Origin: Gemmatimonadota bacterium
GTDB lineage: Bacteria; Gemmatimonadota; Gemmatimonadetes; Gemmatimonadales; Gemmatimonadaceae
Reading direction: 5' to 3'
Assembly (NCBI GenBank): GCA_025359135.1
Contig: JANYHJ010000074.1
Location: 1-64,000 of the forward strand
Length of the DNA stretch: 64,000 bases
This document shows, piece after piece, positions 44,451-56,903 of this stretch; the stretch's first letter is position 1, and every line of letters begins with the position of its first letter. The position numbers and the translations under genes are program-made. Below the pieces are notes generated by a model that was given only the letters and a program-made list of their open reading frames with translations, was not told the DNA's origin and did not search any database.

Positions 44451-46265
44451 CTACCGGAGCCCCGCGCGTCGCCGTAGCAGCCATTCCACGCAGAGCAGCA
44501 GCACAATCACGACGAACGGCCACACCGTCGTGCGCAGGCCCGGTGCCTCGCCCATCGCGGCGCCGCTGCCGATCGCGCCCGCCACCACCGTCGGCCGGCG
44601 CGCGACCCATTCTGCCGACGGATTCACCACGAGTACCGATGCACCGCCGGTTGCGCGCACGTCATAGATGCCGGCCGGCAGCGCCGCCGTGAGCGCTTCG
44701 TTCACGTCGCGGGCGAAGCGCAGCTCCAGCGTGTCGGGCGTGGCGCGCTCACCGTTCCGCGCGCCGCGACGCTTGAGCGAGACGCGCACAAGCGTGTCAC
44801 TGACTCCTCCACGCCGCCAGCGTACCGGATCGCCCTCGCGCACCAGACCGGCGGCGGGTCGAGCCGCGCGCACGTCAGGACGATCCGACGCGAGCCAGTC
44901 CGCGGCGGCGCCCCACAAGGCGCCGAACGCATCGGCGGGAATCCCCGAGCGCACGCGCCACGCGGAGAATCCACTCGCCGTCACCACCACCGTGCGGCGT
45001 GGCGTCGTGCGCCCCACCACGATCGCCACCGGCCGTTCACCGCGCGCGCGCGCCGCCATCAGGCCGGTCCACTCGCCCGTGGCCGGCGGTCCCGCTTCGA
45101 TCGGCGGCAGCGAATCCCACGACACGCCACCGAGCGCGCCCGCGAGCGGCGATGGAGGCGCCGAGACGGCGTACCATTCGCCCGTGTGCTCCCTTGGCGG
45201 CGCGATCAACGCGAGCGCGCCGCGCGCGGCGCTCGTCGGCTCACCGAAGATTGACGTATCTCCGTGCAGCACGACCATCGGTGCTCCCGCCACGAGGCGC
45301 CGCACGTCCGCTTCCGCGATCGGCGCGAGGCTTCCGTCGACACGCCACTGGGCCGGAGCGACTCGCAGGTAGGCGCGTGTCGGCAACCCCACCGCGCCGC
45401 GCAGCAGCGCCACGATCCAGCGCGCGTCGGCGTCGGGACTGCTCGACACGAACACCACCGACGCCTGCGGGGCGACATCGAGGGCGACGCCCAGTGTGTC
45501 GTTCGCGGACTCCGCATCGGGAGACGTCGCGACGCTCGCCCGCAACACGAGTGCTCCGGCGCGATCACCGAGCCGCACCCGCAGCGGCACGCTGCGTTCG
45601 CCCCACGCGCCCAGCGCCTCGAGGGCGGCCTCGGCCACGACCGTGCCATCGAGCGCGAGGCGCACACGTCCCGCGCTCGAGCCCGCTGCGCCCGCCGCCA
45701 CCGACACGCGCACATCGATGGAATCGCCGGCGACGGCCGCCGAGGGCGCCTCGAGCGTCGTGATTGCCACGTCCGCACGCGCGGCACGCGGCGGCACGAT
45801 CACCTGCGAACCCGACGGCAACGACTGCAGCGCCTCGGGATCGACCAGCTCACCGTCCGTGACGACGATCAACGCGCGGCCCGCCGCCAGCGCCCGCTCG
45901 ACGACGGGCTGCGCACGCGAGGCCGCGTCGCCCGGTACAGCGGGCATCGCTCCGGCGCGCACGGTGTCGCCGAACAGGAAGATAGAGTCGGCGCTCACAT
46001 CACGTGCTTCACGCACCGCCGCGCGCCATGCGGACGTGTCGCCGCCGCGTCGCCAGCTCGACGACGCGTCCAGCGCCACGAAGGGGCGTGCGCGCGAGGC
46101 CGGCGCTGCCGGTGCGTCGAGCGCGAGCGCGACCGCCAGCGTCACGATGACGAAGCGCGCGGCCACGGACGCGCGCGCCGCCCACCCTGTGCGCAGCGCG
46201 AGGGGCCAGTATCCGGCGAGCGCGGCCACGGCGCCCGCGATGAGTGCGATCAACCAGGTCCACAT
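44451..46265 (-). CDS. Membrane-anchored von Willebrand A-type protein (Bat-like)
   Basis: A protein of about 604 residues with two N-terminal membrane helices, a vWA core with a MIDAS-like DASSS near residue 66 and VVTDGE near 135, a long middle region with duplicated beta-type segments, and a C-terminal helix (VWPFVVIVLLLCVEWLL). The domain order resembles BatA/BatB-related proteins. No Bat partner is linked. The ATG at 46265 is chosen, with TAGCTT 9 bases upstream; a GTG at 46274 is possible. Confidence 0.7.
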   Translation of the reverse strand: MWTWLIALIAGAVAALAGYWPLALRTGWAARASVAARFVIVTLAVALALDAPAAPASRARPFVALDASSSWRRGGDTSAWRAAVREARDVSADSIFLFGDTVRAGAMPAVPGDAASRAQPVVERALAAGRALIVVTDGELVDPEALQSLPSGSQVIVPPRAARADVAITTLEAPSAAVAGDSIDVRVSVAAGAAGSSAGRVRLALDGTVVAEAALEALGAWGERSVPLRVRLGDRAGALVLRASVATSPDAESANDTLGVALDVAPQASVVFVSSSPDADARWIVALLRGAVGLPTRAYLRVAPAQWRVDGSLAPIAEADVRRLVAGAPMVVLHGDTSIFGEPTSAARGALALIAPPREHTGEWYAVSAPPSPLAGALGGVSWDSLPPIEAGPPATGEWTGLMAARARGERPVAIVVGRTTPRRTVVVTASGFSAWRVRSGIPADAFGALWGAAADWLASDRPDVRAARPAAGLVREGDPVRWRRGGVSDTLVRVSLKRRGARNGERATPDTLELRFARDVNEALTAALPAGIYDVRATGGASVLVVNPSAEWVARRPTVVAGAIGSGAAMGEAPGLRTTVWPFVVIVLLLCVEWLLRRRAGLR

Positions 46266-46281
46266 GCGGACCACAAGCTAG

Positions 46282-47500: not shown

Positions 47501-47860
47501 GGCGCTCGCGACTCCACGTGGCTGGAAAGGTGACGTGATGGGACCCAGCAGCCCGCAGGCGACCGGGTTATCAACAATGCAGGGATGTTACACCGAGGGC
47601 AGAATATAGCCCGTTGTTCACTCGGCATGGCTGTGCATTGGACGACCGAATGCGCGGGACGGCACTCGCCCTTCCGGCACCACTTTTCCACATTTCCCGA
47701 GAATTTCATCAGCTATTTGACATTCTCGCGTCGTCCTGAGCGAAGCGAAGGACCTGCTTGTGCCGTTCAGCGCTCGCGAAGCAGGTTCTTCGCTCGTTCA
47801 GAACGACAGGATTGTCCAAGACGTAACTCTCACGCTTCCGTCTCCCTCGCACCTCTCGTC
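47501..47860. other. 360-base intergenic region between divergent ftsZ and the propeller-GGT gene
   Basis: No gene is supported here. It holds a TATATT on the minus strand (47603-47608) that may belong to ftsZ, and the palindromic repeat at 47731-47806. An open frame runs through it into the GGT gene, but its peptide derives from the repeat and has no signal peptide until the ATG at 47861. Confidence 0.7.
47731..47806. repeat. REP-like palindromic repeat upstream of the propeller-GGT gene
   Basis: tcgtcctgagcgaagcgaag... (47731-47759) pairs with 47779-47806 as an imperfect inverted repeat of about 29 bases with a 19-base loop. Such gcgaagcgaagga-type repeats are scattered in some bacterial genomes. 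A near copy of one arm lies at 33253-33271. Confidence 0.7.
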
Positions 47861-50758
47861 ATGCCGCGCTCCGCACGCCTGATCGCCATCGTCGCCGTCC
47901 TCCTCGCCAGCGTCGCGTTCCGCTCCGCGGCGCAGGTCGTCACCCTCGACCGCACCGTGCGATCCCCCGCTGTGGCCGCGGACGGCCGCGTCGCAGTCGA
48001 AATCGACGGCGACCTCTGGGTGCGCGCGGCGTCGGCTGCTGCGCCATGGCATCGCCTCACGAGCGGCAGCGCGTGGGACATGCAGCCGAGCTTCACGCGC
48101 GATGGACGCGCGCTCGTCTTCAGTTCCGATCGCGGCGGGAGCTGGCGCATCCATCGCCTTGCGCTCGACGACACCGTGGCCACGGGCGAGCCCGAGGTGC
48201 TCACCACCGGCGGTACAGACACCGACCCGGTCGCGTCGACTGATGGCCGCATCTACTTCGTGCGCGGCCGCCACGCCGCGATGCGCCTCTTCGTGCGCGA
48301 GACCGATGGCACCGAGAAGCGCGTCACGACGCTTGGCAATCCCGAGAGCGCACCGGCCTTGTCGAGCGACGGCACGCGCCTCGCGTACGTCGACAACGTC
48401 GACGGCAGCGGGCGACTGCGCGTGCGCGTGATCGCGACCGGCGTCGACCGCGTCATCGTCGGCGACCGCGACGTCGACGGTGCGGCCTGGTCGCCGAGCG
48501 GCGACCGGCTCGCGCTCAGTGCGAGCGGCGGCCGTGGCGGCGTCTTCGTGACGGGCGCCGACGGTCGCACGGTCCAACCCGCCAGCACCGTGCGTGGCGA
48601 CGTGGCGTGGAGCGCCGACGGCCACACGCTCTTGATCGCCGAGCGCAACGACGACGAGCCCGGCTACAACGGCGATCCCGATCGACTTGGCCTGCGCGTC
48701 AGCGAGCGCTTCGGTGCGCCGGGCCGCTTCATCACCGTCGCGGCGCCAGCACCCACCGACGCCGCGCGCGCCGATGTCGCACTCACGACCACGGCGATCA
48801 GCGTCAATCGCGCCGCGCGAAACGCCGAGGCGTTCGATCGCGCCTGGCAGCGCACCAACACCCTCTACTTCGCGCACGATGCGGCGAGGCAGGCGCAGTG
48901 GGCGAGCGTTCGCGAGCGCGTGCGCGCGCGCGCCCTCGCCGCCGCCAACGACAGCGCGCTCGACGCCGCGATCCACGACATGCTCCAGCAGCGTCCACCA
49001 CTGCGCGTCCCGGCCAGCGGGCGCGCCGTCGTCTCGAGCGCCAATCCCGTGGCCACCGAAGCCGGACTCGATGTGCTCCGCGCCGGAGGCAACGTCGTGG
49101 ACGCGGCCGTCGCGGTCTCCTTCGCGCTCGGCGTCGTCGAGCCCGACGCGAGCGGCGTCGCCGGCTACGGACAGATGGTCGTGCACAAGAACGGGTGGGC
49201 CGAGCCGCAGCTCATCGAGTTCATGGGACGCGCGCCTGAAGCGGCGTCGCTCGACAACGCGAGCTTCCTCGAGAACGGCCGCTATCCCAACGACGGCCCG
49301 GTGCTGCCGATCGTGCCCGGCACGGTGGCCGGCATGCACCGCGCGTTCACGCGCTTCGGCTCGGGCAAGGTCACGTGGAAGGCCGCCCTCGCGCCGGCCA
49401 TTCGTGCCGCTCGCGATGGCTATGCGGTCACCGAAGGTCTTGCCACCACGCTACGCGTCGAGCGCGACCACTTCGCGAAGTACGCGGGCAGTCGCGCCCT
49501 CTTCTTCCGCAACGGGGAGCCCCTCAACGTCGGCGACACGATTCGCAACCCGGATCTCGCGTGGGTGCTCGAACAGGTGGCCGAGCGCGGCGCCGACGGC
49601 TTCTACCGTGGCGAGGTGGCGCGCCGGCTCGTGACCGACCTGCACGGTCAGGGCAACGCCATCACCATGCGCGACATGGCGCGCTACTTCGCGGCCGATC
49701 GCACACCCGTCAAGGGCACCTATCGCGGCTATACCATCTACTCAAGTGCGCCGCCCGTCTCGGGCGGCACGCAGATGGTCGCGCAGCTCAACCTCCTCGA
49801 GCAACAGGGCGGCCTCAAGCCGATCACCGACGATCCGCTCAGCGCACACGCCTTCCTCTCGGCGTGGCTGCTCGCGCCGCGCAGCCGCGTGGCCGATCCC
49901 GGGCTCTGGCCCGTCGACATTGCGCCCGCGATCGACAAGGACACCGCGCGCGCGCGTTGGCGCTGCTTCGACGCGGGCGCGGCACCGACACCGCGTCTGC
50001 TCACCGGCGTGCTCGCCTGCGCGGGCAATGGTCCCGCCACGCCGCCGCAACCGTCCGCACCGCCTTCGAACGGCGATGCATTCGCGTCGCGCATGGCGGC
50101 GCCCGAAGGCTGCGACCCGGCGGAGCACGCGCGCGAAGTCGCGATGTGCCGTGCGCAGGGCACCACCTCGTTCGCCGTTGCCGACAACGACGGCAACATG
50201 GTCGTCGTCACGCAAACACTCGGCACCTGGGGCGGCAACTTCTACGTCACCCCCGGACTTGGCTTCCTCTACAACGACAAGCTCACGTCGTTCAACAGCG
50301 ACCCGAACGGCTACGGTGCCCGCGTGGGCAATTCGCGGCACGGCAGCATCATCACGCCCACGATCGTCTTCAAGGGCACGGGACGCGACATGAAGCTGGT
50401 CTTCGGCGTCGGCGCTGCGGGCAACGCCTGGATCACGAGTGCGGTCTACGCCGCGCTCGTCGGCCGGCTCGACTTCGGCCTCGATCCGCAGCGCGCACTC
50501 GAGCAGCCGCGCTTCTTGCCCGGTGGTCGCGGCTTCTTTGGCGGCGGCGATCCCACGGCGCACTTCACCATCGAGTACGAGGACGGCTTCTCGCCCGGCG
50601 TCATTCGCGCGCTGCAGGCCAAGGGCTGGGACATGGTGCCGATCTCGTTGCGCGGCGAACTGCGCATGGGCTACGGCGCCGCCGTCGCCATCGACGGCAA
50701 GACAGCCACGGCGGGCGCAGATCCGCGACGTGCCGGCGCGGCGGGAGCGATTCCCTAG
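47861..50758 (+). CDS. Beta-propeller/tricorn-like region fused to gamma-glutamyltransferase
   Basis: A 965-residue secreted protein with three parts. Residues 1-25 are a signal peptide (cut near SAAQ). Residues about 30-310 are PD40-type propeller blades (SFTRDGRALVFSSDRGGSW, SSDGTRLAYVDNVDG, AWSPSGDRLALSAS). Residues about 325-370 resemble the helical C1 region of tricorn-type proteases (EAFDRAWQRTNTLYF). From about 380 to the end is a gamma-glutamyltransferase with AVVSSANPVATEAGLDVLRAG and the self-cleavage/nucleophile threonine at about residue 768 in GTTSFAVADNDGNM. The GGT appears intact. The start has a clear signal peptide; no Shine-Dalgarno is visible. Confidence 0.85.
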   Translation: MPRSARLIAIVAVLLASVAFRSAAQVVTLDRTVRSPAVAADGRVAVEIDGDLWVRAASAAAPWHRLTSGSAWDMQPSFTRDGRALVFSSDRGGSWRIHRLALDDTVATGEPEVLTTGGTDTDPVASTDGRIYFVRGRHAAMRLFVRETDGTEKRVTTLGNPESAPALSSDGTRLAYVDNVDGSGRLRVRVIATGVDRVIVGDRDVDGAAWSPSGDRLALSASGGRGGVFVTGADGRTVQPASTVRGDVAWSADGHTLLIAERNDDEPGYNGDPDRLGLRVSERFGAPGRFITVAAPAPTDAARADVALTTTAISVNRAARNAEAFDRAWQRTNTLYFAHDAARQAQWASVRERVRARALAAANDSALDAAIHDMLQQRPPLRVPASGRAVVSSANPVATEAGLDVLRAGGNVVDAAVAVSFALGVVEPDASGVAGYGQMVVHKNGWAEPQLIEFMGRAPEAASLDNASFLENGRYPNDGPVLPIVPGTVAGMHRAFTRFGSGKVTWKAALAPAIRAARDGYAVTEGLATTLRVERDHFAKYAGSRALFFRNGEPLNVGDTIRNPDLAWVLEQVAERGADGFYRGEVARRLVTDLHGQGNAITMRDMARYFAADRTPVKGTYRGYTIYSSAPPVSGGTQMVAQLNLLEQQGGLKPITDDPLSAHAFLSAWLLAPRSRVADPGLWPVDIAPAIDKDTARARWRCFDAGAAPTPRLLTGVLACAGNGPATPPQPSAPPSNGDAFASRMAAPEGCDPAEHAREVAMCRAQGTTSFAVADNDGNMVVVTQTLGTWGGNFYVTPGLGFLYNDKLTSFNSDPNGYGARVGNSRHGSIITPTIVFKGTGRDMKLVFGVGAAGNAWITSAVYAALVGRLDFGLDPQRALEQPRFLPGGRGFFGGGDPTAHFTIEYEDGFSPGVIRALQAKGWDMVPISLRGELRMGYGAAVAIDGKTATAGADPRRAGAAGAIP

Positions 50759-55976: not shown

Positions 55977-56903
55977 GTGCGCCCGCGCGTCATCATCTCC
56001 GCCACGTTGGCCCTCGCCATCAGCTGGGCATGCGACTCACCGACCGAGCCGTCACTCGGCCGGCCGGTGTTGCCACCACTCGCGAGCGCGGTCACGGGTG
56101 CAGCGCAGGCCGCGATCGGTGCGGATGGCTTCTTTCGCGTTGCCGCAGACACGGCGTTCGGTGCCGACAGTCTGATCAGCCCGGCACGCGCCAGCGCGCT
56201 GCTGCTCTCCTTCCTGCAGCGCAGGGACTTGCCCTTGATCATCTGGTCGCGAGGCGATGCCTACGTGGAACTCACGTACCCGGACATCCGCGTCTGTGGC
56301 CCGGCGCGAATAAATCGCGCATGGGCGTTTCCGATCACGGACTCTGTCTCACCGAACACGCGCTGGACCTTCGGCCCGTGGTACTCCGCCCCCGTCTGCG
56401 ATCCAGATGGCATCTTCCGAGGCATGATCGGCGTGACGGCGTTAGCCACGAGTCTCGGAATGGCCGATTCAGCGCTCTCTGCGCAACTCGATCGTTCCGC
56501 CGGCTTCGACTGGTACAACGCTCCGCTCGACTGGAATCCGCTGTTCACGGCCGAGCAGGCTGCGGTGCTCGCGTTCGTGCTTACCGGACGGCGCGTGACG
56601 AACGTGCCGCAGCCGATTCCGATCTTCGGTAGCCGCAGCCTCGCGTACCGCTTCCGAGTGGACCTCGAGTCGCCGGTCAATTACCGCGAGACCGTCACGG
56701 GGCGAGTGGACAGCACCCGGTCATTGATCATCCGCTATAACCCGGCCTCGAGCATGCTAGTGATCATCGACTCGATCGCAACGGAGCGACCGACACTCAC
56801 GACTACCGAATTTCCGACTGATACCGGCACAGGCAGGAGCATCACCCTCACCCTCGCTGACACGGCGCGCCGGCGGCTGATTCCGGTGGTCATCGTACCG
56901 TAG
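55977..56903 (+). CDS. Predicted lipoprotein, unknown function
   Basis: A 308-residue protein, GTG start, with a lipobox-like signal end (ISWAC, Cys at about 19). The rest is a globular alpha/beta-looking sequence with two more cysteines that might pair (VCGPARI and PVCDPDG) and Thr/Ser-rich tail. I do not recognise the family. It follows tetR on the same strand after 131 bases, then converges with the dehydrogenase gene. Confidence 0.6.
   Translation: MRPRVIISATLALAISWACDSPTEPSLGRPVLPPLASAVTGAAQAAIGADGFFRVAADTAFGADSLISPARASALLLSFLQRRDLPLIIWSRGDAYVELTYPDIRVCGPARINRAWAFPITDSVSPNTRWTFGPWYSAPVCDPDGIFRGMIGVTALATSLGMADSALSAQLDRSAGFDWYNAPLDWNPLFTAEQAAVLAFVLTGRRVTNVPQPIPIFGSRSLAYRFRVDLESPVNYRETVTGRVDSTRSLIIRYNPASSMLVIIDSIATERPTLTTTEFPTDTGTGRSITLTLADTARRRLIPVVIVP

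Follow-up and report, generated by a model that had tools for sequence, protein, structure and literature searches.

The closest described relatives of the protein analyzed here are the gamma-glutamyltransferases (GGTs), for which the effects of exchanging single residues of the substrate pocket are documented. The substitutions R109M and R109L of the Bacillus licheniformis enzyme leave 4-5% of the hydrolysis and abolish transpeptidation, the R114L variant of Escherichia coli GGT is dead, lysine at the arginine position keeps 93% of the activity in the E. coli enzyme, and D433N of the same enzyme gains cephalosporin-acylase activity (PMC8062742). Some GGTs of extremophiles have neither the arginine nor the SS pair and are still called GGT, and lid-less GGTs possess open clefts and are thought to take polymeric substrates (PMC8062742). 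GGT homologs with other chemistry, LmbA/Ant6, are also known (PMC5519988).

The gene studied here lies in a 64,000-nucleotide stretch of DNA from a Gemmatimonadota bacterium, which was analyzed as a whole and is referred to as the window. It is an open reading frame of 965 codons, previously recognized in an initial annotation, that starts with ATG at 47861 and ends with the stop codon at 50756-50758. A further in-frame ATG is present at 47585, 276 bases upstream, and the orthologs favor the start near 47861. The features of the gene are listed in Table 1.

Table 1. Features of the propeller-C1-GGT-fold gene, with coordinates in the window and the evidence used.
Feature	Coordinates	Strand	Evidence
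Whole gene, 965-aa (predicted) secreted propeller-C1-GGT-fold protein	47861..50758	+	ORF, Pfam, orthologs
Sec-type signal peptide, residues 1-24, MPRSARLIAIVAVLLASVAFRSAA	47861..47932	+	Sequence; low-confidence helix 3-18 in model; hydrophobic N termini in most orthologs
Six-bladed PD40/TolB-like beta-propeller, residues 26-296	47936..48748	+	Pfam PD40 2e-19; NCBIfam TolB propeller 83 bits; six strand groups in model
YNGDP motif, residues 269-273, in blade 6 insertion	48665..48679	+	Conservation in 74 sequences
C1-type helical segment, residues 313-377	48797..48991	+	Pfam, orthologs, profile-profile comparison; helices 317-337, 341-359, 364-376
GGT large-subunit part, residues 385-704	49013..49972	+	Pfam G_glu_transpept; Foldseek to GGT large chains
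M455, aligned to the alpha-carboxylate-binding R114 of E. coli GGT	49223..49225	+	Alignment; 74 sequences
Variable linker ahead of the predicted self-cleavage site, residues 705-767	49973..50161	+	Low pLDDT at 725-755; length 25-84 residues among members
T768, predicted nucleophile and, after G767/T768 cleavage, N-terminal residue of the small subunit	50162..50164	+	Aligned to E. coli T391; invariant in 74 sequences
GGT small-subunit part, residues 768-965, hallmark TTxF...TQTLGTWGGNFY...LGFLYND	50162..50755	+	Alignment, conservation, Foldseek
G788, K807, S810, aligned to the alpha-amino-binding N411, Q430, D433 of E. coli GGT	50222..50290	+	Alignment; 74 sequences
N855, in the place of the oxyanion-hole G484	50423..50425	+	Invariant in 74 sequences

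The Pfam search of the window protein returned PD40 in three stretches, of which residues 65-98 were the strongest, and G_glu_transpept (PF01019) at residues 404-959 with 327 bits against a gathering score of 27, covering profile positions 2-512 of 512. A structure model was built with AlphaFold2 on an alignment of 74 sequences (pLDDT 87.6, pTM 0.89) and replaced a 10-sequence model of pLDDT 65.8. It shows a complete GGT fold, preceded by six blades (residues 26-296) and three helices (317-376). The top PDB matches identified by Foldseek were precursor mutants of the E. coli and B. licheniformis GGTs (TM 0.86-0.88 by target), followed by a 'cephalosporin acylase' from B. halodurans and LmbA2991, and HpxW structures were also among the matches. 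A search of a viral fold library gave propeller-type and weak matches only. Pfam, profile comparison and the 74-sequence model agree with the anatomy proposed by the initial annotation, i.e., a secreted 965-aa protein with a PD40 propeller, C1-like helices and a GGT-fold domain carrying T768.

A chance or frame artifact was ruled out by about 70 full-length uninterrupted orthologs and by purifying selection on every domain (dN/dS of 0.20-0.42 against a same-genus ortholog), and an assembly chimera was rejected because the same fusion occurs in many independent genomes. Within the YNGDP motif the Y, N, G and P are invariant and the D is found in 72 of the 74 sequences, and the blade 6 insertion that carries the motif is 28-40 residues long in all members. 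Three cysteines around the linker, C702, C720 and C763 (49964-49966, 50018-50020 and 50147-50149), are kept in 69, 69 and 58 of the 74 members, respectively, and could possibly form a disulfide holding the subunits or the linker.

The helical segment between propeller and GGT fold had been likened to the C1 part of tricorn-type proteases. Tricorn_C1 matched residues 320-375 of the window protein with an E-value of 0.011 and 16.1 bits, below the Pfam gathering score of 24 bits, and it also matched seven of ten orthologs (best E-value 1.3e-4). When 41 genomes were scanned in all six frames, the gathering score was exceeded by three fusion proteins (27.4, 26.6, and 25.0 bits). A profile of 39 fusion linkers, compared with one of 29 C1 domains from Gemmatimonadota, matched it with a probability of 94.5%, and the C1 profile, when run against the whole fusion profile, landed on residues 313-377. 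On these comparisons the match of the linker, weak as it is, exceeds chance, and they support the proposed kinship with tricorn C1. C1-type helices were also found by the 41-genome scan in short frames (most of about 335-580 aa) resembling plain S41 peptidases, and the highest NCBIfam score of the propeller was to a TolB-like model, so that descent of the propeller-C1 module from tricorn specifically is plausible only. No Pfam match to a PDZ domain or an S41 serine-protease core was obtained in any of ten fusion orthologs. The suggestion that an Ntn-hydrolase, with T768 as its predicted nucleophile, stands in place of the PDZ and S41 core of tricorn is supported, whereas the wording that this core is a 'full' or 'intact' GGT is not. 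Two other Tricorn_C1 proteins of tricorn size are encoded elsewhere in the same genome (G000:C69:33815-33976 and G000:C191:3592-3753; open frames of 1195 and 1177 aa).

Alignment with E. coli GGT paired T391, T409, and G483 with T768, T786, and G854 of the fusion protein. T768, T769, T786, and G854 were invariant in the 74 sequences, which come from four phyla, and this invariance suggests that catalysis is probably retained. The residues R114, N411, Q430, D433, and G484 of the E. coli enzyme aligned with M455, G788, K807, S810, and N855. Position 455 was occupied by methionine in 57, leucine in 13, and lysine in 4 of the 74 sequences, the lysine belonging to four Acidobacteria members; the methionine and leucine are the same residues as those introduced by the R109M and R109L substitutions of B. 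licheniformis GGT. The new residues at the other positions were glycine at 788 (70/74), lysine at 807 (70/74), serine at 810 (69/74), and asparagine at 855 (74/74). The two-glycine oxyanion hole (G483-G484) is half kept, with G854 present and the second position an invariant asparagine. The stretch corresponding to D433-S462 is 18-19 residues long in all 74 sequences versus 29 in E. coli GGT, and the lid loop is thus absent from the fusion proteins.

The six fused proteins that were compared with the GGT equivalog model TIGR00066 (NCBIfam) scored 287-345 bits, all below the cut-off of 357.85, while two canonical GGTs of the same genome passed it with 476 and 489 bits and another canonical GGT reached 617. 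The canonical GGTs of the window genome retain the classical motifs, and separate, better-scoring GGT genes were present in this genome and in all eight other host genomes examined. The fold and the nucleophile of a GGT are present in the fusion protein, but its identity as an intact GGT was ruled out by the replaced residues of the gamma-glutamyl pocket together with the equivalog cut-off. The role as a glutamyl-peptide processing machine put forward in the initial annotation, in which a true gamma-glutamyl hydrolase or transferase with an unusual pocket would have gamma-glutamyl peptides fed to it or docked by the propeller, is quite unlikely. It draws on the fold and the nucleophile and on the extremophile GGTs that also lack R114, with lysine at this position in the Acidobacteria branch, but it conflicts with the joint change of R114, N411, Q430, D433, and G484 and their conservation in the new form, with the failed cut-off, and with the coexistence of canonical GGTs in every host genome examined. 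A specificity changed from gamma-glutamyl is, in our judgment, highly probable, although the arginine-free extremophile enzymes and the Acidobacteria lysine count against it and would advise caution.

The uninterrupted full-length fusion was detected in 45 of the 298 Gemmatimonadota genomes sampled (~15%), nearly all in one family, and in 19 of the 396 Acidobacteriota genomes sampled (~5%) at a score of at least 870 bits. Ten of the 25 genomes of the family sample carried it, the window genome included, and in the Bacteroidota sample it was found in the center genome alone among 396 genomes. A motif search added eight Bacteroidota loci (Saprospiraceae, Lewinella, Flavilitoribacter, and one other) and one Planctomycetota bin. 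Strong matches in the 298 Gemmatimonadota genomes were all located in long fused frames with two exceptions, a fragment of the contig-end type and a split gene. The scores in the Acidobacteriota and Bacteroidota samples were bimodal, with unfused GGTs at 340-370 bits and, apart from a fragment of 250 aa, fused proteins at 870 bits or above. No unfused member of the fusion clade was seen among the sampled members; the motif search relied on motifs taken from the fused proteins, and unfused members with other motifs could escape it, but not the scans of the phylum samples.

In phylogenetic trees of the GGT part the fused members formed one clade (100/100 support, branch length 0.8-0.9), apart from the canonical GGTs, from a group that we take to be YwrD-like, and from other non-canonical unfused GGT groups. 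Two unfused Bacteroidota proteins of another non-canonical group (L187 and L188) have the sequence TQTLGTFFG after the nucleophile strand, close to the TQTLGTWGG of the fusion. A Gemmatimonadota-like copy with 52% identity is carried by a contig labeled Candidatus Kuenenia (L061), which is probably mis-binned. The search for a mobile gene returned no plasmid record covering 80% of the query.

In the window the gene is flanked by ftsZ, which diverges upstream, by a gene for a DUF748 protein downstream, and by a TetR regulator. These flanking genes provide no peptide context and no hint of function, and neither an operon including the gene nor a sigma-70-like promoter above chance was found in the window. 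The sequence CGTCCTGAGCGAAGCGAAGGA at 47732-47752, between the ftsZ start and the fusion gene, occurs in the window in one exact copy and one copy with 3 mismatches against 0 expected, and looks like a remnant of a dispersed repeat. Two open frames of the window, at 44451-46274 (minus strand, 607 aa) and 55977-56903 (plus strand, 308 aa), gave no Pfam match at an E-value of 0.001.

Other genomes showed a different context. Of the 64 loci with enough flanking sequence, 26 have a gene for a HEAT-repeat cyclophilin directly upstream in the same orientation (e.g., L051:3914-5911), and in nearly all 26 it overlaps the fusion start or ends 0-140 bases away, which suggests that some Gemmatimonadota carry the two genes as an operon. 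The window gene has no such neighbor, and the only homolog of the cyclophilin in this genome is a weak one on another contig; an obligatory partnership with the cyclophilin was rejected as not general. The partner gene at many loci and the TolB-like score of the propeller would suit a protein that cleaves itself yet is catalytically idle, acting in binding or envelope assembly with the TolB-like propeller as its working part. We regard this as very improbable, since the nucleophile and active-site region is the most conserved part of the fusion protein and the most constrained (dN/dS of 0.20 in the small subunit versus 0.42 in the propeller).

The remaining neighbors included M28, S9, and M24 peptidases, an M20-type protein, an amidohydrolase, and an amino-acid permease, and they provide circumstantial evidence for peptide use in the envelope or periplasm. 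The variable neighborhoods, mostly of peptidases and transporters and with no consistent biosynthetic or purine-catabolic cluster, and the open lid-less site, which suits larger substrates, both argue against an Ntn amidase dedicated to a single small metabolite other than a peptide, with a propeller that only stabilizes or binds. Such an enzyme would resemble HpxW, which is said to use oxamate, or the LmbA types, which act on a biosynthetic intermediate, and its possibility is raised by the known GGT homologs with other chemistry (PMC5519988) and by the LmbA2991 and HpxW structures among the Foldseek matches; we consider it unlikely.

The explanation that we favor, with reasonable though not strong confidence in the whole, is a secreted, self-cleaving amidase or peptidase of the GGT fold with changed specificity and a propeller-C1 accessory module, and it builds on what was observed, namely the architecture, its conservation, the single clade, the replaced pocket, the shortened lid, and the model. 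We infer that the precursor, which belongs to the superfamily of Ntn hydrolases with the GGT fold (T03) and carries the propeller-C1 module at its N terminus, would be exported by Sec, and that T768 would attack the carbonyl of the preceding G767. The chain would then split into a small subunit of 198 residues and a propeller-C1-large subunit of roughly 740, the two remaining together, and the freed T768 may hydrolyze an amide bond. In the predicted site the gamma-glutamyl clamp (R114, N411, Q430, D433) is swapped for the conserved pocket M/L455, G788, K807, S810, and N855, with the lid loop gone, and an entrance or docking surface is probably provided by the propeller, the C1 helices, and the near-invariant YNGDP loop. 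Since the clamp is replaced and the lid lost, the substrate is most likely another amide, probably a peptide or peptide-derived. The substrate class is the weakest step of this explanation, and we rate the chances of a peptide role, e.g., in scavenging, as about even. A self-activating, propeller-gated Ntn peptidase, i.e., a second 'tricorn-like' gated enzyme with an Ntn core in place of the serine-protease core and a specificity new for the GGT fold, is a speculative possibility on the doubtful side.

The fusion, in this case a protein of a soil or groundwater bacterium, has been kept across four phyla, and its GGT-fold match would earn it the plain name 'gamma-glutamyltransferase', a name that is wrong for it, judging by the pocket. 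It offers a test case for a change of substrate in an Ntn-hydrolase, and for the question whether a propeller-C1 module is portable, gating or docking substrates for catalytic cores that are unrelated to each other. The exact residues for testing are provided by the distribution in a single clade together with the YNGDP and TQTLGTWGGNFY motifs, both nearly invariant. No named family for the fusion was found in the libraries searched, nor any relevant paper on fusions of PD40 or tricorn with GGT in the literature search. We conclude that the fusion is real and conserved, an apparently undescribed combination of domains within a known superfamily, and that its active site has been rewired.

Compared with known systems, the protein shares with the tricorn-type proteases the order of propeller then C1, and its C1 is related to theirs by profile comparison, whereas they have six- and seven-bladed propellers in tandem and the fusion protein has one six-bladed propeller in the model. 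The unfused non-canonical GGT-like proteins of Gemmatimonadota and Bacteroidota (L016, L109-L112, L187, and L188) likewise lack R114 and D433, but they have no propeller or C1 and their clade is separate from the fusion. LmbA/Ant6, CapD, and HpxW types are also Ntn hydrolases of the GGT fold that act on substrates other than ordinary gamma-glutamyl ones; none is described with a propeller, and their pocket residues differ. With GGT itself (PF01019, MEROPS T03, TIGR00066) the fusion protein has in common the fold, the nucleophile threonine, the second threonine, one oxyanion glycine, and the predicted layout of large and small subunit, and it differs from GGT in the replaced pocket, the missing lid loop, the N-terminal propeller and C1 helices, and the long variable linker ahead of the cleavage site.
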